NCBI RefSeq assembly: GCF_900086705.1
Contig: NZ_LT575483.1
Coordinates: forward strand, 3,043,516 to 3,107,515
Length of the DNA: 64,000 nt
Reading direction: 5' to 3'
Source of the DNA: Massilibacillus massiliensis
GTDB lineage: Bacteria; Bacillota; Negativicutes; FLKF01
The first letter of the stretch is position 1; each line of letters starts with the position of its first letter. The position numbers and the translations under genes were made by a program. Positions 9,925-59,476 of the stretch are shown here, piece by piece. The notes beneath the pieces are model-generated. The model was not told the DNA's origin. It saw only the letters and a program-made list of their open reading frames with translations, and made no database searches.

Positions 9925-11317
<1,393 letters not shown>

Positions 11318-11328
11318 TAAGCTTAGAG

Positions 11329-11376
11329 ACAGCGCAAAGCATAGAAGATTCTTCCATGTTTTTGCGCTGTTTTTTT
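11329..11376 (+). terminator. Rho-independent terminator of eno
   Basis: ACAGCGCAAA (11329-11338) pairs with TTTGCGCTGT (11361-11370), followed by six T. Confidence 0.85.
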
Positions 11377-11521
11377 ATAATGTATAATTTTGTAATTTAA
11401 AACGTAAAGATAATTTTGTTTTGTATAAAGTATGAATTTTGTGCAAAACTTAAATTATATATTTTGCAGGTAATTTATATCTCTAAGGCTTAAAAATTTA
11501 GTGATAGGGTAGGGATTTTAA

Positions 11522-17736: not shown

Positions 17737-18090
17737 GGGGGCGTAATGGTTTCGACGGGGGTAGTTGGAGCATAGGTAGCGAGTCGGGGGTTCATCAACC
17801 CGTTAGTAAGGTGAAACTTTTATTTAAATATAAAAGCAAACAACGAATACGCTTTAGCAGCTTAATGCTAACCTCTTTCTGACCTAATCCTGCGGGGTTG
17901 GAAAAGAGGTCAATTAGCGGGATACCTGATAGCCAATTCTCGGAGGCTTGACTGGGAAATAGATCGAGATAGTATCCGCGAAGCCTGCTTGTGGGCGTCA
18001 ACGATGTGAATTTTAAAGCACAAGAAGCACTCGGAGAAGCCTATGAGTCAATGCTTTCGGACAGGAGTTCGATTCTCCTCGCCTCCACCA
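17737..18090 (+). ncRNA. ssrA: Transfer-messenger RNA (tmRNA), tag ANNEYALAA
   Basis: The mature RNA of about 354 bases begins GGGGGCGTAATGG and ends CGCCTCCACCA; the first seven bases pair with CGCCTCC before ACCA as a tRNA-like acceptor stem. The T-arm GGAGTTCGATTCTCC is present. The tag frame (17836-17865) reads GCA AAC AAC GAA TAC GCT TTA GCA GCT TAA, giving ANNEYALAA. It rescues stalled ribosomes together with SmpB. A 66-codon reading frame across the 5' part is a shadow. Confidence 0.95.
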
Positions 18091-18128
18091 AGTGAATATG
18101 CAATAGAGAGTATTGCTGTATATAGAGG

Positions 18129-18162
18129 AAAAAGCTGCCACGATAAAATGTGGCAGCTTTTT
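18129..18162 (+). terminator. Terminator of tmRNA (bidirectional)
   Basis: AAAAAGCTGCCAC (18129-18141) pairs perfectly with GTGGCAGCTTTTT (18150-18162). The group II intron begins seven bases behind it. Confidence 0.9.
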
Positions 18163-18168
18163 CGTTCC

Positions 18169-20053
18169 GTGCGCCCGGCATGGGCGCAATCTAACGGGTG
18201 AAAGTCCCGAGCGCGGGTTAATAGTGCCAAGCGCATAGTCAAGAGCAAGGGTGTCCATCGCGAGGTGGAATCTGAAGGAAGCTGGCGGCAAATCTCTGGC
18301 CTGACGAACAGAAACCACATATAAGGCAGGAGGAAACCGGGTAAAGTCGCGGAACAGACTGAAGCCCCAAACTATTCAAGGTCAATCCTGTAGATGTGGC
18401 AGGTAGATGGAGAGAAAGATTGCGTTCTTACCCGGGGAGGTCTCACAGACATGTGAAGATAATTCTTCCGAAACATGGTTGAAATAAGATTTACTGTGAG
18501 AAGTCAGCCGAGGTCATAGTACCGAAGATTTTTTTTTCGGGAAGGACTGAACAATAATAGAGTTCGTGAGCAAAGGAAGGTGAGTCATGTTAAGAGAGCA
18601 GAAAACCAATAAAATGGGCTGGCCTTGCCAGGGTATGCTGGAAGCAGAGAGTAACAAGGGAGCGCGGAGCGTGACAACACTGGAAATAGCAAAAGAGAAC
18701 CGCGTAAACCTGTTAGAAGAAATACTAAACCGAAACAACCTCAATACGGCATATGCGCAGGTAGTACGTAAGAAAGGTACAAGCGGAGTAGATGGGATGC
18801 AAGTAGGCGAGCTGAAAGAATGGCTGAAGGAAAACAAAGAAGAATTTCTTGAATCACTGCAAGCGGGGAGATACATTCCTAAACCCGTGAAAAGGGTAGG
18901 AATTCCGAAGGCGGATGGAGGAATACGAAAACTAGGAATACCGACCGTGGTAGATCGACTCATACAGCAGGCAATTTCGCAAGTGCTAACGCCTATTTTC
19001 GAAAAGACATTTTCCGCAAGAAGTTATGGATTTCGCCCGGGAAGGAATGCGCATCAGGCAATAAAACAAGGCGAAGTGTACTACCGGGAGGGATACAAGA
19101 AGGTAGTCGACATCGACCTAGCGCAGTACTTCGACACGTTAAACCATGACATGCTCATCAACATGCTCCGCGAGGAAATCAAGGATGAGAGAGTTATAAG
19201 CCTCATCCGAAGATACCTGAAAAGTGGAGCTATGGAAGGCGGCATAGTCAGTCCTAGTAAAGCTGGAACCCCGCAAGGAGGAAATCTATCGCCACTGTTA
19301 TCGAATATCTATCTGACAAAGTTTGACCAACTGCTGGAAAAGCGCGGACATAAGTTCGTAAGATATGCAGATGACTGCAATATCTATGTACGGACAGAGC
19401 GTGCGGCAAAGCGAGTTATGGAAAGTTGCGTGAATTTCCTAGAAAGAAAACTAAAATTACAAGTCAATCGCCGAAAGAGCCGAGTAGGAAGCCCACTGAA
19501 GGTGAAGTTTCTGGGATTCTCATTGCACAAAGTGGTGAGAAAAATCGGAATACGACCGCATGGAGAAGTACTCAAACGCTATAAAGAGAAAATTAGAGAA
19601 ATAACGAGCCGAAGTCGTGGGCGTTCAATAAAAGACATAATGCAAGAATTGAGAAACTACACAACCGGTTGGTTAAGCTATTTCTCTATAGCGGATATGC
19701 GGACGCAGATACAGGAAATAAATAAATGGATACGACGCAGGCTGCGAATGTATCTATGGAAGCAGTGGAAGAAAATAACCACTCGATTTATGAATCTGCA
19801 AAAGCTGGGATTAGATAGAAATAGGGCTTGGCAGTATGCAAATACCCGATTAGGTTATTGACGTATCGCTGGAAGTGCTATTTTACAACGGACACTAACA
19901 GACAAATACCTCGAATCTCTAGGCTACATGAACATAGCAAAGAAATACGAGGTACTCCATTTACGTTAAATTATTGAACCGCCGTATACCGAACGGTACG
20001 TACGGTGGTGTGAGAGGTCGCTAAATAAATTAATTATTTAGCTCCTACTCGAT
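18169..20053 (+). mobile_element. Group II intron, class C (IIC), inserted behind the tmRNA terminator
   Basis: The 5' end GTGCGCCCGGCATGGGCG at 18169 and the 3' end CCTACTCGAT at about 20053 are typical boundaries of bacterial class C introns. The 418 bases before the maturase gene are structured domain I-III sequence without genes. Domain V (about 19975-20010, with CCGCCGTA...GAAC...TACGGTGG) and domain VI (about 20011-20050, stem GCTAAATAA / TTATTTAGC with a candidate bulged branch A at 20047) are recognisable. Class C introns are known to insert just downstream of terminator hairpins, as here. The 3' boundary is uncertain by one or two bases. Confidence 0.85.
18587..19861 (+). CDS. ltrA: Group II intron reverse transcriptase/maturase, cut short by an in-frame TGA
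   Basis: A 424-residue protein with reverse transcriptase blocks (IPKADGGIRKLGIPTVVDRL, YGFRPGRNAHQA, TPQGGNLSPLLSNI, the YADD catalytic motif in VRYADDCNIYV) and a maturase/thumb region (LRNYTTGWLSYFSIADM). No HNH endonuclease domain, as in class C. After NTRLGY a TGA (19859-19861) stands where relatives have Trp; the same frame continues for 35 more codons (RIAGSAILQRTLTDKYLESL and onward) to TAA at 19967-19969. So the protein has lost its last 36 residues by a single G-to-A change, unless the stop is read through. AAGGAAGGTGAG before ATG. Confidence 0.85.
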   Translation: MLREQKTNKMGWPCQGMLEAESNKGARSVTTLEIAKENRVNLLEEILNRNNLNTAYAQVVRKKGTSGVDGMQVGELKEWLKENKEEFLESLQAGRYIPKPVKRVGIPKADGGIRKLGIPTVVDRLIQQAISQVLTPIFEKTFSARSYGFRPGRNAHQAIKQGEVYYREGYKKVVDIDLAQYFDTLNHDMLINMLREEIKDERVISLIRRYLKSGAMEGGIVSPSKAGTPQGGNLSPLLSNIYLTKFDQLLEKRGHKFVRYADDCNIYVRTERAAKRVMESCVNFLERKLKLQVNRRKSRVGSPLKVKFLGFSLHKVVRKIGIRPHGEVLKRYKEKIREITSRSRGRSIKDIMQELRNYTTGWLSYFSIADMRTQIQEINKWIRRRLRMYLWKQWKKITTRFMNLQKLGLDRNRAWQYANTRLGY

Positions 20054-36252: not shown

Positions 36253-37278
36253 TTGGAAATAAATGATGTAAAAACTGTTATCCAAGATTTTTTTCAAGAG
36301 AACACAGTTACCATTATTGGCTCTGGTTTATCAGTAGCTGAAGGGATACCTGGGATGGGATCTTTATCAGTGGAATTACTCGATAAGCTGCCTTGTAAAA
36401 TCAATGAAAAAGCTGACGTGGACAACTGGAAAGCTATATCAGACAGATTAAAAGTGGGAGAAGGTCTTGAAGAAGCACTTCACAGTGAAAAACCAACAAG
36501 TATTGTTGAAGAAAAAATAAGAGAAACTACGGCAGAATTTATACGCACTGCTGAAAAGAAGGCTTTGAATAGTGTTTTGTCGGGGAGTAAACGTTTTAGG
36601 CTTTCAGACTATTTGCAAAGATTTAATATAAGGAACAATGGATTAACCGTTATAACCACAAATTACGATAGACTTGTTGAATATAGCTGTGAAATGAATG
36701 GGATCAGAGTAGATACATTATTTGTTGGAAAATTTATTTGTCAGTTCTCTCCAGACGAAAGTAAATATTCTTTTTGTAAAAATATTTATAAATTAAGAGG
36801 GCAAAGTCGAGTCGAATATTCACCCAAAGTAAAGGTTTTAAAGCCGCATGGATGTTTAAGTTGGTATCAAATCAATGGCTGTGCATATTCAGTTCCTCAT
36901 TTAGAAAAAGACAACTGTTTAATCATAACTCCGGGGATCAATAAATATAGAGAAGGATATAATGAGCCATTTGATACACATCGTGCACGAGCCAACGCAG
37001 CAATAGACAGTGCTTTGAGGTACATAATTATCGGATATGGATTTGGAGATGATCATCTGGAAACTCATTTACTTCGCCAATTAAATTCAAATAAACCTGC
37101 ATTAATCCTTACTCATTCATTATCTGATAAAGCAATAAAAGTTGTAAAGGGGTGTAAAAATGTTATAGCTGTTTGTAATCGAGATAATGGATCTTTAGTT
37201 ATGAATAAAGATGGTGAAATATTTTTTCCTAGTATAAATTTATGGGATATTAGAGAAATGATTAAGGAGGTCTTTTGA
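36253..37278 (+). CDS. SIR2-domain NADase, part of a SIR2-HerA defence pair
   Basis: A 341-residue SIR2 protein: NAD loop IIGSGLSVAEGIPGMG (residues 21-36), TTNYD with Asn137 and Asp139, LKPHGCLSW with the catalytic His199, and YIIIGYGFGDDHLE. In the known SIR2-HerA anti-phage system the SIR2 subunit cleaves NAD and assembles with the HerA hexamer. Its stop overlaps the herA start. Starts with TTG after GAGAGGTG. No zinc-finger Cys tetrad of deacetylase sirtuins is seen, consistent with an NADase. Confidence 0.85.
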   Translation: MEINDVKTVIQDFFQENTVTIIGSGLSVAEGIPGMGSLSVELLDKLPCKINEKADVDNWKAISDRLKVGEGLEEALHSEKPTSIVEEKIRETTAEFIRTAEKKALNSVLSGSKRFRLSDYLQRFNIRNNGLTVITTNYDRLVEYSCEMNGIRVDTLFVGKFICQFSPDESKYSFCKNIYKLRGQSRVEYSPKVKVLKPHGCLSWYQINGCAYSVPHLEKDNCLIITPGINKYREGYNEPFDTHRARANAAIDSALRYIIIGYGFGDDHLETHLLRQLNSNKPALILTHSLSDKAIKVVKGCKNVIAVCNRDNGSLVMNKDGEIFFPSINLWDIREMIKEVF

Positions 37279-39020
37279 TGAGTAGTCAAATATCATTCAC
37301 TGAAAATGAATTATTGGGTAGCGTTACTTATGTTGATACAGCACAAATTATCGTTGAAATAGAAAACTCTAATATTATGAGTCAGATTAGTGTGGGTAAT
37401 TTGGTTGCAATTGAAACAGGTAAAAGGCATCAGTTGCTCATTTCATTAATTGACAAGGTAACAAGAAAGTATATCGAAGATTTTGAAGATGAAAATGCAG
37501 AAGAAACTGATATTATGATTTCTTCTGCAGATTATGTTAAAGTTAATATAATCGGAACCTACCATATGGTATTAGGGGAACAAAAAAATATTTTTAAAAG
37601 AGGCGTAGATTTATTTCCGCAAATCGAAAGTAAGTGCTATTGCATCTCAGGAGCCAATTTGCAAAGTTTTATGAATTTGCTCAGTGATTCAATTCAATCT
37701 GACAAGCAATTAAAACTGGGTACCTTTATGATGGATAATAATGCAAGAGCGGTACTTGATGGTAATAAGTTTTTTCAAAGACATGCTGCAATTTTAGGGA
37801 GTACGGGATCAGGAAAAAGTTGGTGTGTAGCTAATATCTTGGAAAAGGCTAGTGAGTTAAAATATGCCAATATCATTGTGCTTGATATGCATGGAGAATA
37901 TGGCTCTTTGACTGAAGGCAAAGATAAAATAGCGGAATCTTATAAAATTGCTGGGCCGGGTGATTTGGAGAAAAATCAAAAGAATATATTATTTTTACCC
38001 TACTGGTTATTAAACAGAGAAGAGATGCTGTCAATGATACTTGATCGGAGCGATTCTAATGCTCCCAATCAAGCTTCTCGTTTTACTTTGCATATTCGTG
38101 ATTTAAAACTAGAAACTCTGAATGAAGAAAATAAGCAAGATATAGCCAAGACATTTACGGTTGATTCTCCAATTCCTTTCAATATGAAATCACTTATAGA
38201 TAAATTACAAGATGATGATACTCGAAAAGGAGTTGGAAAAAATAATGCTCCAGTAAAAGGTGAGTGGGAAGGCAAATTAACACGATTTATTTCTCGATTG
38301 GAAACTAAGATAGCAGACAAGACATATGGTTTTATGTTCCAACCATACGTTGATACGAAAAGCTATAATTGGCTTGCCGAAATGTTATGTAACCTTTTAG
38401 GATATAATGATTCTCAAAAAGGAATTAAAATAGTTGATTTTTCAGAAGTTCCATCAGATGTTCTACCGGTTGTAACTGGGACTTTAGCAAGATTATTATA
38501 TGATGTCCAATTTTGGATGGAGGCAGATAAAAGGACACCATTTACTCTTGTTTGTGATGAAGCACATCTATATTTGCCAACTAAAGATGAAGCTGATTCA
38601 GTACAAAAGCAAGCATTATATAATTTTGAGCGTATTGCAAAAGAAGGGAGAAAGTATGGGGTTTCTCTATTACCTGTAAGTCAACGTCCATCAGATGTTA
38701 GTAAGACAATTTTGAGTCAGTGTAGTAATTTTGTTGTTCTTCGCCTAACAAATGAGAGGGATAAAGGTGTAATAAAGAATCTATTGCCGGATTCTTTGAA
38801 AAGCACAATTGATTTTTTGCCGTTATTGGACGTGGGGGAAGCTTTAATAGTAGGGGATGCAATTCTTCTCCCGAGCAAGATTTTACTCGATAAACCTGAA
38901 ATAAGTCATAGACCAGTAAGTGCTACAAAAGACTTTTGGGATGATTGGGATAAACTTAAACCAGATAATAATGCTGTACAACAAGCAGTTGAGTTTTTGC
39001 GTAAGCAAAGCAGAATATAG
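37278..39020 (+). CDS. herA: HerA-type ATPase/helicase of the SIR2-HerA pair
   Basis: A 581-residue hexameric FtsK-HerA ATPase. N-terminal beta-barrel (1-100), Walker A GSTGSGKS (174-181), NIIVLDMHGEYGSLTEGKD, Walker B LVCDEAHLY (DEAH 427-430) and the sensor region SLLPVSQRPSDVSKTILSQC with SNFVVLRLTNERDKG. Partner of the upstream SIR2 gene with one-base overlap and AAGGAGG 7 bases before ATG. Expected to form a large complex with SIR2 that senses phage infection. Confidence 0.85.
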   Translation: MSSQISFTENELLGSVTYVDTAQIIVEIENSNIMSQISVGNLVAIETGKRHQLLISLIDKVTRKYIEDFEDENAEETDIMISSADYVKVNIIGTYHMVLGEQKNIFKRGVDLFPQIESKCYCISGANLQSFMNLLSDSIQSDKQLKLGTFMMDNNARAVLDGNKFFQRHAAILGSTGSGKSWCVANILEKASELKYANIIVLDMHGEYGSLTEGKDKIAESYKIAGPGDLEKNQKNILFLPYWLLNREEMLSMILDRSDSNAPNQASRFTLHIRDLKLETLNEENKQDIAKTFTVDSPIPFNMKSLIDKLQDDDTRKGVGKNNAPVKGEWEGKLTRFISRLETKIADKTYGFMFQPYVDTKSYNWLAEMLCNLLGYNDSQKGIKIVDFSEVPSDVLPVVTGTLARLLYDVQFWMEADKRTPFTLVCDEAHLYLPTKDEADSVQKQALYNFERIAKEGRKYGVSLLPVSQRPSDVSKTILSQCSNFVVLRLTNERDKGVIKNLLPDSLKSTIDFLPLLDVGEALIVGDAILLPSKILLDKPEISHRPVSATKDFWDDWDKLKPDNNAVQQAVEFLRKQSRI

Positions 39021-43107: not shown

Positions 43108-43536
43108 AGTAGGATATTCAAAAGAATTGGTTGGGATGGTACGTCCAGCTTAGATACTGCTGATAAAAATGGTACCTCATTTGCCAATGTGAAAGATTTT
43201 AAAAATTTTATAATATCAAATCTAAAAAATAATACTCCAATAATGACAGAAAATATCGATTGGGGCGGACATTGGAGAGTAATCATTGGTTATGATACCA
43301 TGGGAACCGATACAACGGCTGATGATATTTTGATCTTAGCAGATTCCTATGATACATCAGATCATTACCAAGATGGGTATAATGTGAATTCAGTGGAAAG
43401 ATTTTATTATATGTGGTTTGATGCTCATATGCTCCCTAAAGGTCAGCAAAACCACATGCGGTTTAAAATAGAAATTATAGTATATATTGAAGAAACCCAC
43501 AACTTATGCCAGTGTCTTAAATTCGTTCTAGTGTAA
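43108..43536 (+). pseudogene. 3' fragment of a C39-like peptidase gene (copy of 49649)
   Basis: From about 43111 the sequence matches the gene at 49649 from codon 142 onward (IGWDG-, NGTSFANVKDFKNFIISNLK, GGHWRVIIGYDTMGTDTTAD, DGYNVNSVERFYYMWFDAHM). The first half with signal peptide and catalytic Cys is missing, and the end reads into unrelated sequence. Not functional. Confidence 0.85.
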
Positions 43537-43601
43537 TCGTTATTCGTGTAAAAATTTTAAAAAATCCACCGGCTAAGTCGGTGAATTTTTTTGATATTCT
43601 T

Positions 43602-44906
43602 TCAGTTTTTTATTTTGGGGATTAACCAGTAAGATAAAACTCCCAGCATAGCAAAGATATAATAAATGATGGAAAAGGGAATATTCAAGTCGATTAGTCG
43701 TCCGGCTAGCGCAGGGCCGAAGGCTCCGCCCAGAAGATAAAATAGTGTAAAAATACCCATGCCTATACCAAGCTCTGCTACAGACAGCGTTGTTGACACT
43801 AAATTTCCACTGGCGGTCAACAGGCCGTTAAGCGCAAGCATAAAAATAATGACTACAAGGGCATCGACCCATGGTGGCAGGCTGGCAAACAGACCTAGAA
43901 GAATAAATCCGCTGATAAGGGAGTAATGAGAAATTTTAAGAATACATGAACTCCCATAATGATCGGTCCAGCGGCCAATAGAAGATCCGAGCATCGCAGC
44001 AACAGCAGCACCTGGCAATATAAGTATGCCAATTGTACTCGACGGCAAGTGGAAGGTGTGCTTCATTACGAACGGTAGTAGAAAGAATAATCCAGTGTTA
44101 CATACAAAAGTAAGAAAGCCTATCCACAAGATACGCAGGAAAGGAGCATTTCTTAGGAATGATACTTGAATAAAAGGCTGGGGTACTTTTTGGATATGAA
44201 TGTAAAATCCTGCAATAAGTGCAGCGCCGATAAAAAGGTATAACCAATGCATCGTTACGCCTAAGAGTATGCAAGCTAATCCTGCCGAGAACAGAACGGC
44301 TCCGAAAATATCGAAGGTCCCTCGGGTGTGCTCTAGGTCCGGAACATACTTGAGTATAAGAGGGACAAGCAAAAAGCTCGAACCCGATACCAAAAACAAG
44401 GCATGCCAGCCGGCGTATTGCTCGATAAATCCGCCAAACACAGGTCCGAAACCGGATGCAAAAGCAATGGAGGCGGAAAGCGCGCCAAGCACTTGCCCTC
44501 TGTTTTCTGAACCAAAATATACGGTTGCAAGTGTATAGGAGAGAGGGGAAATAGCTGATGCGCCTGCTGCCTGTAACAGTCTGCCACCGATTACCTGCCA
44601 GTAGGAAGGGGCAAAAAAGCCAACAATAGAGCCAATGGCAAAAAGAAATAATCCAATGACATATAAATGCCGAATAGAATACGACTCTGTTAATTTTCCA
44701 TAGGTTCCGGCTCCAATTGCCATCAAAATACTATAGCCGACCATTACCCAGCTCACCTGCGAAGAAGTGAGTGTGAAGGACGCGGCAATGGAGGGGATAG
44801 CCAAATTGAACATTGTTATATTCATATTTCCAAATAAGAAAAGCAAGCAAAGTATGCCAATTAGTTTGCGGTCACTTCTGGTTAAAGAGTTAGATATCCT
44901 GTCCAT
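43602..44906 (-). CDS. MFS multidrug-type efflux transporter
   Basis: A 434-residue protein with about 12 helices. The DHA-type exporter pattern is visible: FNLAIPSIAASF in helix 1, GYSILMAIGAGTYGKLTESY (motif A region), GGRLLQAAGASAISPLSYTL, and the drug-proton antiporter motif C region ASGFGPVFGGFIEQYAGW. Last gene of the operon amidase - AHL lactonase - MFS. May export breakdown products or the inducing compound. 14 bases after the lactonase stop. Confidence 0.85.
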   Translation of the reverse strand: MDRISNSLTRSDRKLIGILCLLFLFGNMNITMFNLAIPSIAASFTLTSSQVSWVMVGYSILMAIGAGTYGKLTESYSIRHLYVIGLFLFAIGSIVGFFAPSYWQVIGGRLLQAAGASAISPLSYTLATVYFGSENRGQVLGALSASIAFASGFGPVFGGFIEQYAGWHALFLVSGSSFLLVPLILKYVPDLEHTRGTFDIFGAVLFSAGLACILLGVTMHWLYLFIGAALIAGFYIHIQKVPQPFIQVSFLRNAPFLRILWIGFLTFVCNTGLFFLLPFVMKHTFHLPSSTIGILILPGAAVAAMLGSSIGRWTDHYGSSCILKISHYSLISGFILLGLFASLPPWVDALVVIIFMLALNGLLTASGNLVSTTLSVAELGIGMGIFTLFYLLGGAFGPALAGRLIDLNIPFSIIYYIFAMLGVLSYWLIPKIKN

Positions 44907-44920
44907 AAAAATGATTTACC

Positions 44921-45679
44921 TTAGAAGAATTCGGGGAATGTACGCAAGTTTTCTGCTTGCGATTTATCATGACCGAAGAAAATGATGGAAGGCTGGACAT
45001 CCTGAACTATTTCATGCAGATGTTGATTAGATTTTGAAGCTTGAGCAGAATCAAATGCCAAAAACGGTATATTATGTTCAAAGATATTTTTGTTGTAGGC
45101 TGCATCAATTGTCAGTAATATGGGTCCAGACTGTGGGGTTGTTACAAGCACAGATTGATGCCCTGGAGAGTGTCCCGGTGTAAATAGAATTTTAATTCCG
45201 GGTGCAATCTCATGGTCGCCTGCAATGATTTGGTATTTTAAATCAGGAGTCCTGCACTCAGGCGGTGCGTAATCTGCATTTTTCATGACGGCATCATACT
45301 CCGCACGCTGAATCATAATTGGCGTATTGCGAAAATGGCCGTTTCCGCCTGCATGATCTAGGTGTAAATGAGAGCTGATAACTGCCTGTATATCATCAGG
45401 CTGGTAACCAACGTGTTTTAGAATATTTACAATTCTATCTTTTTCCCGCATATTGGGAACACAGCGTCCTTCTCTGCGAGTACCTTTGTAATAATCAGGA
45501 TTATTGACAAAGCTATCGGGCATTCCGGTATCAATTAACAAGGGACCATCACTTGTTTCTATCAGGAAAGACCACACCGGCATTTCTAATAATTTGCCGG
45601 ATTCAAGTTTTTGATTGACTAAGGATTGATCAAGATAACAAGAACCAGCAGGTAACAAATACATTTTTTTTACTGTCAT
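44921..45679 (-). CDS. aiiA: N-acyl homoserine lactonase, AiiA type
   Basis: A 252-residue metallo-beta-lactamase fold enzyme strikingly like Bacillus AiiA: it starts MTVKKMYLLPAGSCYLDQSL and has EMPVWSFLIETSDGPLLIDT. The two-zinc site is complete: His104, His106, Asp108, His109 in SHLHLDHAGG, His170 in TPGHSPGHQS, Asp192 in TIDAAY and His237 in FFGHD, plus the active-site Tyr195. AiiA opens the lactone ring of acyl-homoserine lactones and so silences quorum signals of Gram-negative bacteria. Middle gene of the TetR-flanked operon. Cytoplasmic. Confidence 0.9.
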   Translation of the reverse strand: MTVKKMYLLPAGSCYLDQSLVNQKLESGKLLEMPVWSFLIETSDGPLLIDTGMPDSFVNNPDYYKGTRREGRCVPNMREKDRIVNILKHVGYQPDDIQAVISSHLHLDHAGGNGHFRNTPIMIQRAEYDAVMKNADYAPPECRTPDLKYQIIAGDHEIAPGIKILFTPGHSPGHQSVLVTTPQSGPILLTIDAAYNKNIFEHNIPFLAFDSAQASKSNQHLHEIVQDVQPSIIFFGHDKSQAENLRTFPEFF

Positions 45680-45801
45680 GGGTTATCACCCTCCATTATT
45701 AGATTATTTATTTTTTAGAAAAAGTTATTTTAAACAAGTTGGTGCAGCTTTTGTTAGCCGCCTTATAAAATCTATGTAGGTTTCACGGAATCTTATGCAG
45801 A

Positions 45802-47190
45802 CTACAAATCGGGGTGTCTTGTATGCCAGTTCGTGTTTAATTCATAAACGTATCCGATACCGAGTACGGTCGCCTCGTCGAAAGGCCGGCCGATCAATTG
45901 CATATTAACAGGCATCCCGGCGGGAGAAAAGCCACAAGGTATAGATAAGCTAGGCATGCCTGTCAGATTGGTCTGCGCAGTAAAGTTTGTCAACCGGAGC
46001 GCGTCCTCGTAATTGTCGGCACGTGGTGCGGTCAGTGGTGTTGCTGGTGTAAGCAGTACATCGACTCCGGATAATGCGTTAAGAAAGTCGTCCACAAATG
46101 CTTGACGAGCCCGTTGTGCCTGCAGGTAAGCAGATAACTGGAGTTGCTTGCTGCTATCGAGAAACATCCGCACATCAGAACCATAATCATTCGGACACGT
46201 TTCAAACCAATGCTTGTGGACCGCAAACATTTCACCCATCATGATGTCCATGGTTGCACTTTGCATATGCTTAATGAATGGTAGATCGACTTCGACGATG
46301 TCTGCGCCAAGCTCACGGAGTTTATGTATCGCCGCTTGCATAATCGTTTCTACATCAGGGCCCAAATTTTCGTAGTAATGTTGTATTGGCAGACCAATAC
46401 GTATACCATTCAGTTCATTCGGATATATCCGAATCCCGGGAGCAGGGAGATCAGCCGTCTCTTTGTCCTTCGAATCGCGACCAGACATGATATCCAAGCA
46501 CAAAGAGGCATCCATTACGCTGCGGGTTAAAGGTCCGGCGTGGTCGAGCGACCATGCCATTTCAATGATACCGTAGCGGCTAACCCGGCCATAGGTTGGT
46601 TTCATCCCGACAACTCCGCAGCAGGCGGCCGGAATACGGATCGATCCGCCTGTATCTGTTCCTGTGCCCAAATAAGCAAGTCCTGCTGCCACGGCGGCTC
46701 CTGAGCCTCCGCTTGATCCTCCAGGAGCCAGGTCAAGGTTCCATGGATTGTGGCAAGGACCAAAGTGTTCACTGCTTGTCGTCATCCCCGCAGCGAACTC
46801 GTGCGTCTGAACTTTACCGAGTAGCACAGCTCCGGCTTCTTGTAATTTGACTACGACAGTCGCGTCGTAATCGGGGACGAAATCTTTCAGTATTTTAGAA
46901 CCAGCTGTTGTCCGGATACCTTTGGTGTAGTAAAGGTCTTTATGTACGATTGGTATACCGTGCAGGGGGCTCTTATATTGTCCCTGCATAATTTCTTTTT
47001 CTGCCTGCTTTGCCTGTTTTATCGCAAGATCGACTGTTTGGGTAACGAATGCGTTTAACTTTGGGTTCAGCCGTTTACTGCGTGCCAGTGCGAGCGCAGT
47101 AAGTTCAACTGGGGATAATTCGCGTGTCTGGATCATTTTCGCCAAATCATAGATCGTGGCGAAGGAAAACTGAGAATCTAATTCTTTCAT
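45802..47190 (-). CDS. Amidase signature family enzyme
   Basis: A 462-residue amidase: catalytic Lys in GIPIVHKDLYYTKG, the Ser-rich loop LAPGGSSGGSGAAVAAGLAY with cis-Ser, and TGTDTGGSIRIPAACCGVVG with the nucleophile Ser. Related to GatA but probably a free amidase, since gatB/gatC are absent. In context it might cleave the amide of N-acyl-homoserine released by the lactonase next door; this is inference. ATG at 47190 after GAGGAGG; the longer frame starts upstream of that site. Confidence 0.85.
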   Translation of the reverse strand: MKELDSQFSFATIYDLAKMIQTRELSPVELTALALARSKRLNPKLNAFVTQTVDLAIKQAKQAEKEIMQGQYKSPLHGIPIVHKDLYYTKGIRTTAGSKILKDFVPDYDATVVVKLQEAGAVLLGKVQTHEFAAGMTTSSEHFGPCHNPWNLDLAPGGSSGGSGAAVAAGLAYLGTGTDTGGSIRIPAACCGVVGMKPTYGRVSRYGIIEMAWSLDHAGPLTRSVMDASLCLDIMSGRDSKDKETADLPAPGIRIYPNELNGIRIGLPIQHYYENLGPDVETIMQAAIHKLRELGADIVEVDLPFIKHMQSATMDIMMGEMFAVHKHWFETCPNDYGSDVRMFLDSSKQLQLSAYLQAQRARQAFVDDFLNALSGVDVLLTPATPLTAPRADNYEDALRLTNFTAQTNLTGMPSLSIPCGFSPAGMPVNMQLIGRPFDEATVLGIGYVYELNTNWHTRHPDL

Positions 47191-47251
47191 TTGTAACTGC
47201 CTCCTCGAATCAAATTGCTTTCTCATGAGAAATTTGCTATAATTTTAATCC

Positions 47252-47293
47252 GGACAATTTGTCCTGCGATAAATTATAGGGGACAAGTTGTCC
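47252..47293. promoter_or_regulatory. Twin palindromic operators between amidase and TetR genes
   Basis: GGACAATTTGTCC (47252-47264) and GGACAAGTTGTCC (47281-47293) are near-identical 13-bp palindromes, 29 bases apart, extended by CC on the outside. They lie in the divergent promoter region and are the obvious sites for the TetR protein at 47346. Confidence 0.8.
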
Positions 47294-47345
47294 GGATGTC
47301 AATAGATAATTTATAAATTTTTCATTTCAAAGAGGGTGGAATACA

Positions 47346-47957
47346 ATGAATAAAGTTAAAATACAAGAACAAGAATATTCGAAAAATCCTAAGGACGAAT
47401 TATTGCGACGGCGCATTTTGGAATCAGCTAAAGCACTCTTCATCGAACAAGGTGTTGAAAATATCAACATGCATCAGATTGCGAAAATGGCTGGAGTTGG
47501 GCAAGCCAGCTTATATCGCCGGTATAAAGAAAAAGGCGATGTTTGTATGGATATTGTACGCGAAGAGTGCCAACCGTTATTTGATGAAGGAAAAGCATAT
47601 CTGGTCCAAGCTGCTGATGTCTCTTCTTTGGAGCGTTTCTATCAGGTAATTGTTATATTTGTTGCTTTTTTGGAGAAAAAGTCTCCATGGCTTTGTGCAA
47701 CTAACCGAGCTACACCTGGATATCGCCCTCTGCAATCACCGTTATTTAATTGGATGCGTGACACATGCAGAAATTTATTGAATGAAGCCATCCAAGAGAA
47801 GGAAATAGAAGAGACGGACGTTTTATATACCGTTGAAATCTTACTGTCTGCACTCCAAAACATTGATTTTCATGCACAGGACCAAAACTATGGGACAGAG
47901 AGAATTCTACAAGGCTTACGGCGGATTTTCATTGAAGGATTAAAGAAATTAGACTGA
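47346..47957 (+). CDS. TetR family regulator of the lactonase operon
   Basis: A 203-residue regulator: LLRRRILESAKALFIEQGVE, INMHQIAKMAGVGQASLYRR (helix-turn-helix), then a ligand domain (about 70-200). Divergent to the amidase - lactonase - MFS operon with two palindromic operators in between. If the operon acts on acyl-homoserine lactones, this protein could be an AHL-responsive repressor. GAGGGTGG before ATG. Confidence 0.88.
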   Translation: MNKVKIQEQEYSKNPKDELLRRRILESAKALFIEQGVENINMHQIAKMAGVGQASLYRRYKEKGDVCMDIVREECQPLFDEGKAYLVQAADVSSLERFYQVIVIFVAFLEKKSPWLCATNRATPGYRPLQSPLFNWMRDTCRNLLNEAIQEKEIEETDVLYTVEILLSALQNIDFHAQDQNYGTERILQGLRRIFIEGLKKLD

Positions 47958-49648: not shown

Positions 49649-50446
49649 ATGAAAAAAAAGTTACAGAAAATCTTTATTTGTTTAGCTTTAGGGATGAGTT
49701 TTTGCACTGTAAATCAAGCATTTGCAAATAGTTTAGAACAGATTAATTCTACAGAAGAAAGTCATGTGATTGCGTATCCTGCTGATTATGACACGCGTTC
49801 GGAAGGCGCATCTGCTTATAATGGATTAGGCAATATTAAGCAATCGCTTTATTTTGCTGTGCAAGATTTTTATAATTTGCAGTCAACAGATTCATTAACG
49901 ATTCTCCCTCATTATAAGACATATCAGCAGACAACAGAAATAACCTGTGGGCCTGCGGCTGCTTTAACAGTTCTTGTTCACTATGGGAATACAAGCTGGA
50001 CTGAAAAAGAAATAGCGAAAATCATGGATACAAAACCTGCGGTGGGTACAGATACAGCAGGAATGGTTAAGTACTTCAAAAAAATTGGTTGGGATGTTAC
50101 ATCTAGTTTAAACAGCGCGGATGAAAACGGTACCTCATTTGCTAGTGTGAAAGATTTTAAAGAGTTTGTAATCGCAAATCTAAAAAATAATACGCCTATA
50201 CTGGTAGAAAATATTGATTGGGGCGGACATTGGCGCGTCATTATTGGGTATGATACTATGGGAACCGAAACAACTGCTGATGATGTTTTGATTTTAGCAG
50301 ATCCGTATGATACATCTGATCATTCTCAAGATGGGTATAATGTAAATTCGGTAGAACGGTTTTATTTTATGTGGTTTGATGCACATATGCTTCCTGAGGG
50401 TCAGCAAAATCAGCAATGGATTATAGCAAAACCACAGTCGAATTAA
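49649..50446 (+). CDS. Secreted C39-like cysteine peptidase
   Basis: A 265-residue exported protein: signal peptide (KIFICLALGMSFCTVNQAFA), then a papain-like C39 domain with catalytic Cys in TEITCGPAAALTVLVHYG, His in GGHWRVIIGYD and Asp/Asn region ILADPYDTSDH. C39-type domains cut leader peptides or act on peptidoglycan-linked peptides; here there is no ABC transporter fused, so a free periplasmic enzyme is likely. GGGAAGAGGG before ATG. A broken second copy is at 43108-43536. Confidence 0.75.
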   Translation: MKKKLQKIFICLALGMSFCTVNQAFANSLEQINSTEESHVIAYPADYDTRSEGASAYNGLGNIKQSLYFAVQDFYNLQSTDSLTILPHYKTYQQTTEITCGPAAALTVLVHYGNTSWTEKEIAKIMDTKPAVGTDTAGMVKYFKKIGWDVTSSLNSADENGTSFASVKDFKEFVIANLKNNTPILVENIDWGGHWRVIIGYDTMGTETTADDVLILADPYDTSDHSQDGYNVNSVERFYFMWFDAHMLPEGQQNQQWIIAKPQSN

Positions 50447-56620: not shown

Positions 56621-56846
56621 TGATTTATCATTTAATTCATAAAGAAGACAAAACTCTAATTTCTTTTAAGATGCAGTTGGGTTTTTTATTTTGAGTTAAT
56701 TATATTGCTGAAGTATGTTTTTTGATAAAAATGCATAATGAATGCGCCTACATGTCGGATCAGGGAAATTTTTAGCGAAAATCATTGACAATAAAATTTG
56801 TCAATGCTATCATAATATCGAAATATGGAAAAGATTATATGAGTTG

Positions 56847-57003
56847 AAGCAGGTGTCCGAAAGGACTTAATAGGGAAGTCTGATGTAAGGTCAGCGCGGT
56901 CCCGCCACTGTAACAGGGAGTGAATCCGTAAAAATGCCACTGGAGCAAAAGCTTTGGGAAGGTGCGGAGAAACGATGAACTGGAGCCAGGAGAACTGCCT
57001 GTT
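56847..57003 (+). promoter_or_regulatory. Cobalamin (B12) riboswitch
   Basis: Consensus parts in order: AGGGAAG..., GTCAGCGCGGTCCCGCCACT with TGTAACAGGGAG, TGCCACTGG, GGGAAGGTGCGGAG and GAGCCAGGAGAACTGCCTG, with CAGG near 56850 closing on CCTG near 57001. B12 binding would lower expression of the TonB receptor/ABC operon. The expression platform probably uses the hairpins at 57106 and 57166. The stretch 56621-56846 shows no gene. Confidence 0.93.
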
Positions 57004-57105
57004 TAGCAATCACCGTTAGCATTCATGTATGGATGCTTGTACCTGCGAGCGATGGGGAGGAGATTTGATACCATCTAGATTTGTTTTGGTGGAGTAGATT
57101 TTCTT

Positions 57106-57131
57106 CGGCTTGTTTTATAAGCCGATTTTTT
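57106..57131 (+). terminator. First terminator after the riboswitch
   Basis: CGGCTT (57106-57111) pairs with AAGCCG (57119-57124), followed by ATTTTTTATTTATTT. Confidence 0.75.
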
Positions 57132-57165
57132 ATTTATTTGCTGAAAAATTTTTATATGAGTGTGC

Positions 57166-57199
57166 AAAATCTGCCTGCGCTTTGCAGGCAGATTTTTTT
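57166..57199 (+). terminator. Second terminator after the riboswitch
   Basis: AAAATCTGCCTGC (57166-57178) pairs perfectly with GCAGGCAGATTTT (57184-57196) and ends in seven T. The loop-side GCCTGC could compete with riboswitch CAGGC-type strands. Confidence 0.85.
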
Positions 57200-57286
57200 C
57201 GTATCGAAGAAAAGTTAGATAAAGATTGGTGTGGAGATATTGTGCTCTTTGTTTATATGAATGAAGGGACAAATCAAGGAGGAAAA

Positions 57287-59476
57287 ATGAGAAAATTAAC
57301 AAAAAAAGCTACTTGGGGAGTCCTTTCAGGATTTATTTTTATGGCAAACGGAGTGAATTTACCAGTTGGTTTGGCTGCGGAGGCAGTTGTACAAGAAGAA
57401 AGTTCAACAGAGGAAAACAAGGCAATGCCGGAGTATGATTTTGATGAAATTGTTGTAACGGGAGAAAGGGAAACTTATGCAGGAGGCTTTCTTGCTAAAA
57501 CTGGTTCAGTGGGATTCCTTGGCGAAAAAGATGTCATGGATACACCGTTTACGGTTGCCTTTTTATCAGAAAAGACCATCGAAACTTTTGGCGATCCAAC
57601 CCAGCCTTTAGATAGTGTATTGGCTAATACACCATCGATTCGGCAGTCGGGTAGTGTGCTGCATAATGATTTCACATTTCGTGGATTTCGAGCGAATGGA
57701 ACAAGCACCTACGTCAATGGCGTTCCCGGTATTTGGACACAGTTTAATGCACCGACGCATGTAGCTGAAAAAGTTGAAATTGTTTCTGGCCCCAACAGTG
57801 GAATTAGCGGCACTGGCACGCAATATGAATCGGATACGGCTGGCGGACTTGTTAATTTTGTTACGAAAAAAGCTGGTGATGAACCGCTCAATCGTTATAC
57901 ACAAACTTTCTCTGGAAAAGGTCTCTTCGGTGAATATTATGATTTTGGCCGCAGGTTCGGAAAAGATAAAGAATGGGGAATTCGTGTCAACACTGAGAAC
58001 TTGAATGGACAGACAAGTATCAGTAATGAACGGATTAAAGCCAAGAGTATCTATCTTGATCTTGATCATGTCGATGAAAAAAGCAAAACAAATTTATTTG
58101 CCGGTTATCGGGATATCGATATTTTAAATGGACAGAGATGGTTTAAGCTGGGGTCCAATGTAACGAAAATGCCGAGCGTTCCTGATGCGAGTAAAAATTA
58201 TTCGTTTGATGGTATGGCGAAAGCGTCCTATGGCTGGAGTGCTACGCTGAATCATGAACAAATTTTAAATGCGCATTGGAAAGCATTTTTAAATGGCGGC
58301 GTGATGCGTAATAAATTAAATAAAAATGTTATGTATCAGAACAGTGCAGTGACCTTGATCAATGATTTAGGGGATTTTTCTATTAATACACAGAGTACAA
58401 CTACGCCGCAGAAAGCTTATTATTTACAAACGGGTGTCATGGGGAATTTCAAAACCGGTGAGGTGGATCATACATTGACCATTGCAGCCGATCAAGCATG
58501 GCGCAATCGTGATGCAGCAAAAAATGTTAAAACCTATACCATTGGTAAAGGTAATATTTATACAGGTTTAGACCAAACACAGGATGTGAATGTAGCGTAT
58601 GAAAGTGCGCTTTCAAATAAGACAAGAATCAAGGGCTGGTCAGTCGTGGATTCCATGGATTATAAAAAGATGAATGTGTTAGTAGGTTTACATAGACATG
58701 ATGCTGAGGTGAATGCCTATAACACAGCGACAGGAAAGTTGTCTTCTCGTGTAGAAAGTGATGCGTATTCTCCAACGTATGCGATATCGTATCAACCGAT
58801 TGATCATGTATCTTTTTATGCAAGTCACTCAGAAAATTTTGATGCGGGTACGGTTGTTGGTTCTACTTATAAGAATGCTGGGGAAATTTTATCTCCGAAT
58901 AAAACCAAACAAAATGAGGTTGGTATCAAATATTTGAATAAGAGTACTTTAACGACGTTGAGTGCTTTTGATATTAAACAGACAAATAATATTGATGTCA
59001 CGAAAAACGGCGCAACGTATTATGAACAGGATGGGGAAGTTCGTCATAAAGGGGTAGAAATGACAGTCAGTCATGATTTTGCACCGAAATGGAGTGTAAT
59101 GGGCGGACTTTCTTACTTGGATGCTAAATATGTCCAGACTGCAAAAGGCCAATATGATGGAATACAAGAATCCGGCAGAGGAAAATGGAGTGCTGTGGGC
59201 GTCTTAAAATACGCTGCCAGCGATACGGTCGATGTGATTGGCAGGGTGATGTATACAGGAAAAAGTCCGGTGATGTATGAACGTCTTTGGGCACCGTCTT
59301 ATACCGTTTTTGATCTTGGCGTTGGTTACAAAACCAAGGTTATGGGATCGCCGGCGAAAATTAATCTGATGTGCTATAACTTATTTAATAAAGAATATTG
59401 GATGATTGCGCGCGGTGATAATCTTTATTTATCTACCCCTAGGACAGTTTCTTTAAGTATGACACTTGATTTATGA
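57287..59476 (+). CDS. TonB-dependent outer-membrane receptor, B12-controlled
   Basis: A 729-residue receptor: signal peptide (about 1-29), TonB box DEIVVTG, plug domain (about 55-190, with IRQSGSVLHNDFTFRGFRAN, VEIVSGPNSGISG, GGLVNFVTKKA) and a 22-strand barrel ending RTVSLSMTLDL. It resembles siderophore receptors (FhuA/FecA-like; LFNKEYWMIARGDNLYLSTP). Being under a cobalamin riboswitch and followed by a Nik/Opp-type transporter, it may import a cobalt or nickel chelate, or a corrinoid; not decided by sequence. ATG at 57287 after AAGGAGG; the longer frame runs through the terminators. Confidence 0.85.
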   Translation: MRKLTKKATWGVLSGFIFMANGVNLPVGLAAEAVVQEESSTEENKAMPEYDFDEIVVTGERETYAGGFLAKTGSVGFLGEKDVMDTPFTVAFLSEKTIETFGDPTQPLDSVLANTPSIRQSGSVLHNDFTFRGFRANGTSTYVNGVPGIWTQFNAPTHVAEKVEIVSGPNSGISGTGTQYESDTAGGLVNFVTKKAGDEPLNRYTQTFSGKGLFGEYYDFGRRFGKDKEWGIRVNTENLNGQTSISNERIKAKSIYLDLDHVDEKSKTNLFAGYRDIDILNGQRWFKLGSNVTKMPSVPDASKNYSFDGMAKASYGWSATLNHEQILNAHWKAFLNGGVMRNKLNKNVMYQNSAVTLINDLGDFSINTQSTTTPQKAYYLQTGVMGNFKTGEVDHTLTIAADQAWRNRDAAKNVKTYTIGKGNIYTGLDQTQDVNVAYESALSNKTRIKGWSVVDSMDYKKMNVLVGLHRHDAEVNAYNTATGKLSSRVESDAYSPTYAISYQPIDHVSFYASHSENFDAGTVVGSTYKNAGEILSPNKTKQNEVGIKYLNKSTLTTLSAFDIKQTNNIDVTKNGATYYEQDGEVRHKGVEMTVSHDFAPKWSVMGGLSYLDAKYVQTAKGQYDGIQESGRGKWSAVGVLKYAASDTVDVIGRVMYTGKSPVMYERLWAPSYTVFDLGVGYKTKVMGSPAKINLMCYNLFNKEYWMIARGDNLYLSTPRTVSLSMTLDL

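Follow-up and report, generated by a model that had tools for sequence, protein, structure and literature searches.

What AiiA-type lactonases do in the Firmicutes that carry them is not settled. The locus described here, which recurs in distant lineages and appears to provide such an enzyme with its own repressor, a clean operator and two partners under shared control, makes that question testable. It lies in a 64,000-nucleotide stretch of Massilibacillus massiliensis DNA (hereafter, the window). An earlier note on this DNA had read it as a TetR-controlled unit for the full degradation and export of acyl-homoserine lactones (AHLs), of a kind new in a two-membrane Firmicute.

Gene layout and promoter architecture

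The ORF coordinates and strands agree with the four-gene layout given in that note: the amidase, aiiA and MFS genes follow each other in this order of transcription on the minus strand, and tetR is divergent on the plus strand. The amidase start was moved from 47226 to 47190 (MKELDSQ..., with GAGGAGG upstream), most likely the better prediction of the two. The features of the locus are as follows.

43559..43591, minus strand: intrinsic terminator, 3' of the MFS gene
43602..44906, minus strand: MFS exporter, 434 aa, drug:H+ antiporter type (Tet(L)/EmrB-like), operon gene 3
44921..45679, minus strand: AiiA-type metallo-gamma-lactonase, 252 aa (NCBIfam AiiA equivalog, PDB 2a7m alignment, metal site)
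45802..47190, minus strand: amidase-signature hydrolase, 462 aa (Pfam Amidase, triad)
47215..47243, plus strand: probable TetR promoter, TTGCTT-17-TATAAT, placed by eye
47252..47264: operator 2 (predicted), GGACAATTTGTCC, 29 bp from operator 1 and just 3' of the probable TetR -10
47273..47302, minus strand: amidase-aiiA-MFS promoter, TTGACA-18-TATAAT, 12/12 consensus
47281..47293: operator 1 (predicted), GGACAAGTTGTCC, within the -35/-10 spacer of the amidase-aiiA-MFS promoter
47346..47957, plus strand: TetR-family repressor, 203 aa, divergent (Pfam TetR_N, AlphaFold TetR fold)

The twin palindromes reported earlier are present, both predicted operators being perfect copies of GGACAANTTGTCC, and a whole-genome match returned exact copies of this motif at these two positions only in the 4.0-Mb genome. 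Operator 1 lies between the two hexamers of a perfect TTGACA-18-TATAAT promoter and fills that 18-bp gap. The -35 of the TetR promoter was too weak for the promoter scan used. This promoter was placed by eye, and so was operator 2 in relation to its -10.

A gene for a C39-like peptidase is intact at 49649-50446 of the window and has a truncated second copy at 43117-43536 (85% identity over 300 nt). These copies flank the operon on opposite sides and form two partial direct repeats, with the operon and a PfkB gene enclosed between them.

Active sites and family assignments

The lactonase scored 432.7 bits against the NCBIfam AiiA equivalog NF045699 (cut-off 375) and fell far under the cut-offs of the models for other lactonase families, and its assignment as an AHL lactonase is thus backed by a curated model. 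It could be aligned from end to end with PDB 2a7m and carries the HxHxDH plus His, Asp, His metal site. The claim of a complete site holds, as all dinuclear-zinc ligands (H104, H106, D108, H109, H170, D192 and H237) and the catalytic Tyr (Y195) were found. The enzyme resembles Bacillus thuringiensis AiiA (PDB 2a7m, 3dha) in length, fold family, metal site and equivalog membership. It differs from it in having a linked TetR gene with operators, and at the acyl entrance, where the TetR-linked members have R or K in place of F68 (G in L062), R in place of V69 and L in place of F107. F68 and F107 are the Phe pair that we take to form the substrate clamp of B. thuringiensis AiiA, and neither is Phe in the TetR-linked members; the pair is a specificity feature, on which the family definition does not rest. 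The AiiA cavity has been described as partly blocked by F68, with longer chains stabilised by a phenylalanine clamp (PMC6062542).

The amidase matched Pfam Amidase at 1.3e-124 and bears the GGSSGGS and DTGGSIR motifs of the amidase signature family. Its Lys-cisSer-Ser triad (K84, S159, S183) was invariant across 13 homologues. An assignment as GatA was ruled out (363 bits, against an equivalog cut-off of 481). The AlphaFold model, made from 13 narrow homologues, reached a pLDDT of 34.

The repressor matched Pfam TetR_N at 6.7e-10, and its AlphaFold model (pLDDT 88) has the TetR fold. The structural neighbours of this model included EthR2, FadR and a gamma-butyrolactone receptor, all at 11-23% identity, so the ligand domain gives no diagnosis of the ligand. 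The best NCBIfam model was that of ScbR-type gamma-butyrolactone receptors, which was rejected at 40.6 bits against a cut-off of 150. The pump matched Pfam MFS_1 at 2.3e-45 and contains GPVFGG (GPxxGG), the core of exporter motif C. Its best NCBIfam model was that for Tet(L)/Tet(K)/Tet(45) efflux, with a score under the cut-off, and a simple hydropathy count was too noisy to separate 12 from 14 helices.

Recurrence of the gene set and its operators

AiiA is rare among the genomes surveyed. Within the class, 4 of 380 genomes had it, and across the phylum 2 of 398 sampled genomes. One family of the phylum gave 18 of 394 and a sample from that family's class 10 of 398, while the order containing the Caproiciproducens locus (L004) gave 1 of 295 sampled. 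The surroundings of aiiA were mapped for 34 distinct loci (L010 repeats L003, and L083 repeats L005). In 17 of these the cluster includes the TetR gene, and all 17 have GGACANNNTGTCC operator sites; the remaining 17 have neither TetR, amidase, MFS nor operator of this set, and the counts are not independent, since the loci are mutually related. Amidase and MFS genes are each present at 14 of the 17 TetR-linked loci, whose carriers are Negativicutes, a clostridium and two Bacilli-type families.

The gene order varies among these loci. That of the window, TetR/Amid-AiiA-MFS, is shared with Sporomusa sp. KB1 (L002), and Caproiciproducens has Amid-TetR/AiiA-MFS. The order AiiA-MFS-Amid-TetR is found in nine genomes (L031, L053-L060) of family f57, which was labelled Bacilli-type only from its place beside named Bacilli and from its large genomes. 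Shorter versions are TetR/Amid-AiiA (L062, L082), TetR/AiiA-MFS (Propionispira arboris and one relative) and TetR/AiiA (L064). No amidase orthologue was found in P. arboris and the related genome, where only GatA-like matches of 45-46% were detected, and none was seen in the stretch of L064 examined. In L082 the amidase matches in two pieces (10426-11479) at an otherwise intact locus, which suggests a frameshift or a sequencing error.

A promoter with the operator in its spacer was detected at 14 of the 17 loci (the window and 13 of the 16 others), giving 15 promoters because L004 has two; the promoters of L060, L062 and L064 failed the hexamer rule of the scan. The amidase of L004 has a TTGACA-18-TATAAT promoter of its own, with the operator in its spacer and a second operator 28 bp away. 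The check for the same set elsewhere gave TetR and operator together at every TetR-linked locus. That these genes form one TetR-linked modular regulon, in line with the TetR-controlled operon of the earlier note, is close to certain as far as can be read from operator footprints, the contrast between the two halves of the locus sample, the varied gene orders and the twin operators of the L004 amidase. The separate operator-bearing promoter in L004 is the strongest single argument for placing the amidase in this predicted regulon.

Horizontal transfer

Compared with Sporomusa sp. KB1, the operon shows 90-93% identity and RNase R 63%. This difference indicates recent horizontal transfer, and on such sequence comparisons the gene set is horizontally mobile. 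The plasmid collection contained neither an AiiA nor an amidase above 60% identity, so no plasmid-borne copy was seen.

Relation to known systems

In Agrobacterium, the ligand-induced operon blcABC (attKLM) includes a metallo-lactonase, serves gamma-butyrolactone catabolism and is governed by BlcR, an IclR-type regulator. The window set likewise has a metallo-lactonase in a predicted ligand-induced operon, but AttM is only about 32% identical to its AiiA. A further likeness is the qsd operon of Rhodococcus erythropolis, which is repressed by the TetR-type QsdR and induced by AHLs via the homoserine-lactone ring; its lactonase is QsdA, and its second enzyme, the acyl-CoA ligase QsdC, acts on the other half of the AHL (PMC6262395). 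In both, a TetR-family repressor is linked to an AHL lactonase and a second enzyme, here as predicted from sequence, and the window has candidate operators at the lactonase promoter as a QsdR-type system should. Unlike qsd, whose abstract names no amidase (PMC6262395), the window set has no qsdA and qsdC pair and combines an AiiA-type lactonase, an amidase-signature enzyme and an MFS pump with an operator motif of its own. QsdR was the sole precedent found for an AiiA-amidase-TetR cluster in the open-licence literature. TetR-controlled, AHL-induced quenching is already known from Rhodococcus, and the AiiA-amidase-MFS version looks like a variant of it. The novelty suggested for a two-membrane Firmicute has to be tempered, since Sporomusa sp. 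KB1, a clostridium and several genomes of Bacilli type carry the set as well and qsd has been published.

Activity on AHLs has been reported for AmiE, an amidase-family AHL acylase from Acinetobacter sp. Ooi24, and for plant FAAH, and porcine acylase 1 cuts C6-homoserine and spares C6-HSL (PMC5474475). The window enzyme is likewise amidase-type, a likeness drawn from the published description of AmiE. The account of AmiE and FAAH in PMC5474475 describes no coupling to a lactonase operon.

Proposed function and alternatives

We give somewhat better than even credence to an inducible, horizontally mobile regulon for lactone and amide degradation, with AHL as the most likely ligand and substrate. 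The ligand, the substrate, the order of the steps and the cargo of the pump are those that we infer from the genes, catalytic sites, operators and regulon read in the DNA. When no ligand is present, TetR would be bound at both operators; with operator 1 in the spacer of the amidase-aiiA-MFS promoter and operator 2 about 30 bp away near the tetR start, both promoters would be shut. A lactone, most likely an AHL diffusing from neighbouring Gram-negative bacteria, would release the repressor, and AiiA would then open the lactone ring. In most carriers the amidase could cut the amide of the opened product into fatty acid and homoserine, which would render the breakdown irreversible, and the pump may remove the signal or a product. 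Since 3-oxo-AHLs are toxic to Gram-positive bacteria, protection against them would account for the pump. A LuxI search of the genome gave no match, nor did the control genomes, so this negative carries no information.

The observation in the earlier note is thus confirmed, and its interpretation is borne out in part. AHL is the likely substrate of AiiA, our best guess given its AiiA membership, the QsdR precedent and the published amidase-type AHL acylases. The recurrence of the set in shuffled orders across distant Firmicutes makes it look like a real inducible pathway, and a two-step route from lactonase to amidase is plausible on sequence grounds. The changed entrance residues, together with the three TetR-linked loci where the amidase is missing, call for caution over a fixed two-step AHL pathway. 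A stronger proposal, which we advance tentatively and rate a little below even, is that a modular regulon is widespread in Firmicutes and that a single AHL-sensing TetR in it would control complete lactonase-then-amidase breakdown plus efflux.

The same layout could instead serve to detoxify another lactone or amide natural product, such as an antibiotic, which the hydrolases would inactivate, the pump expel and TetR sense. TetR, hydrolase and MFS genes are a frequent combination in detoxification operons, the pump is closest to tetracycline/florfenicol-type exporters, and the search of relatives yielded a single fair TetR paralogue (33%, G318), which also adjoins an MFS gene. The entrance of this AiiA clade is, moreover, altered and more basic. 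We nevertheless consider this explanation unlikely, because the active site is complete, the score exceeds the cut-off of the curated AHL-lactonase equivalog, and other lactonase families score far under their cut-offs.

A further possibility concerns the amidase, which might share the regulator with AiiA and differ in target, as an accessory scavenger responding to the same stimulus instead of a second step. Its history is partly separate from that of the rest of the set: the L004 amidase groups with that of the window (82% identity, 100/100 support), while the L004 AiiA, TetR and MFS are distant (57-65%), and the GC content of the amidase gene is 0.49 against 0.41 for aiiA. It is missing from L003 and L011, and in L097 (8597-9988) a 61%-identical amidase has a LysR gene and a peptide-type ABC transporter as neighbours, AiiA is absent and no operator lies nearby, which indicates that this amidase family is not AHL-specific. 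A module that travels together with its operator-bearing promoter should show such a partly separate history. Against a different target, the amidase is kept with AiiA under the same operators in several lineages, even if separately transcribed; a separate target seems improbable to us. The sole point in favour of chance neighbours with chance palindromes is how common TetR and MFS genes generally are. The shuffled synteny and conserved operators of 17 loci refute that explanation, and we give it practically no weight.

If the AHL-sensing, two-enzyme reading is true, AiiA-type lactonases would belong to a physiological pathway dedicated to them and induced by its ligand, in carriers for which AHL production is not known, two-membrane anaerobes included. 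Should AHL release the repressor, the regulon would act against signals on induction and could supply biosensors as well as enzymes for irreversible quenching; should the ligand be another compound, annotations as AiiA conceal another substrate.

Other features of the window

At 36253-39020, genes for a SIR2-like protein (SIR2_2) and a HerA-type ATPase (DUF87) are neighbours, resembling the SIR2-HerA anti-phage pair. At 17737-20053, the tmRNA gene is followed directly by a group II intron, with its reverse transcriptase/maturase at 18587-19861. A cobalamin riboswitch (56834-57016) lies 5' of a 788-aa ORF at 57110-59476.
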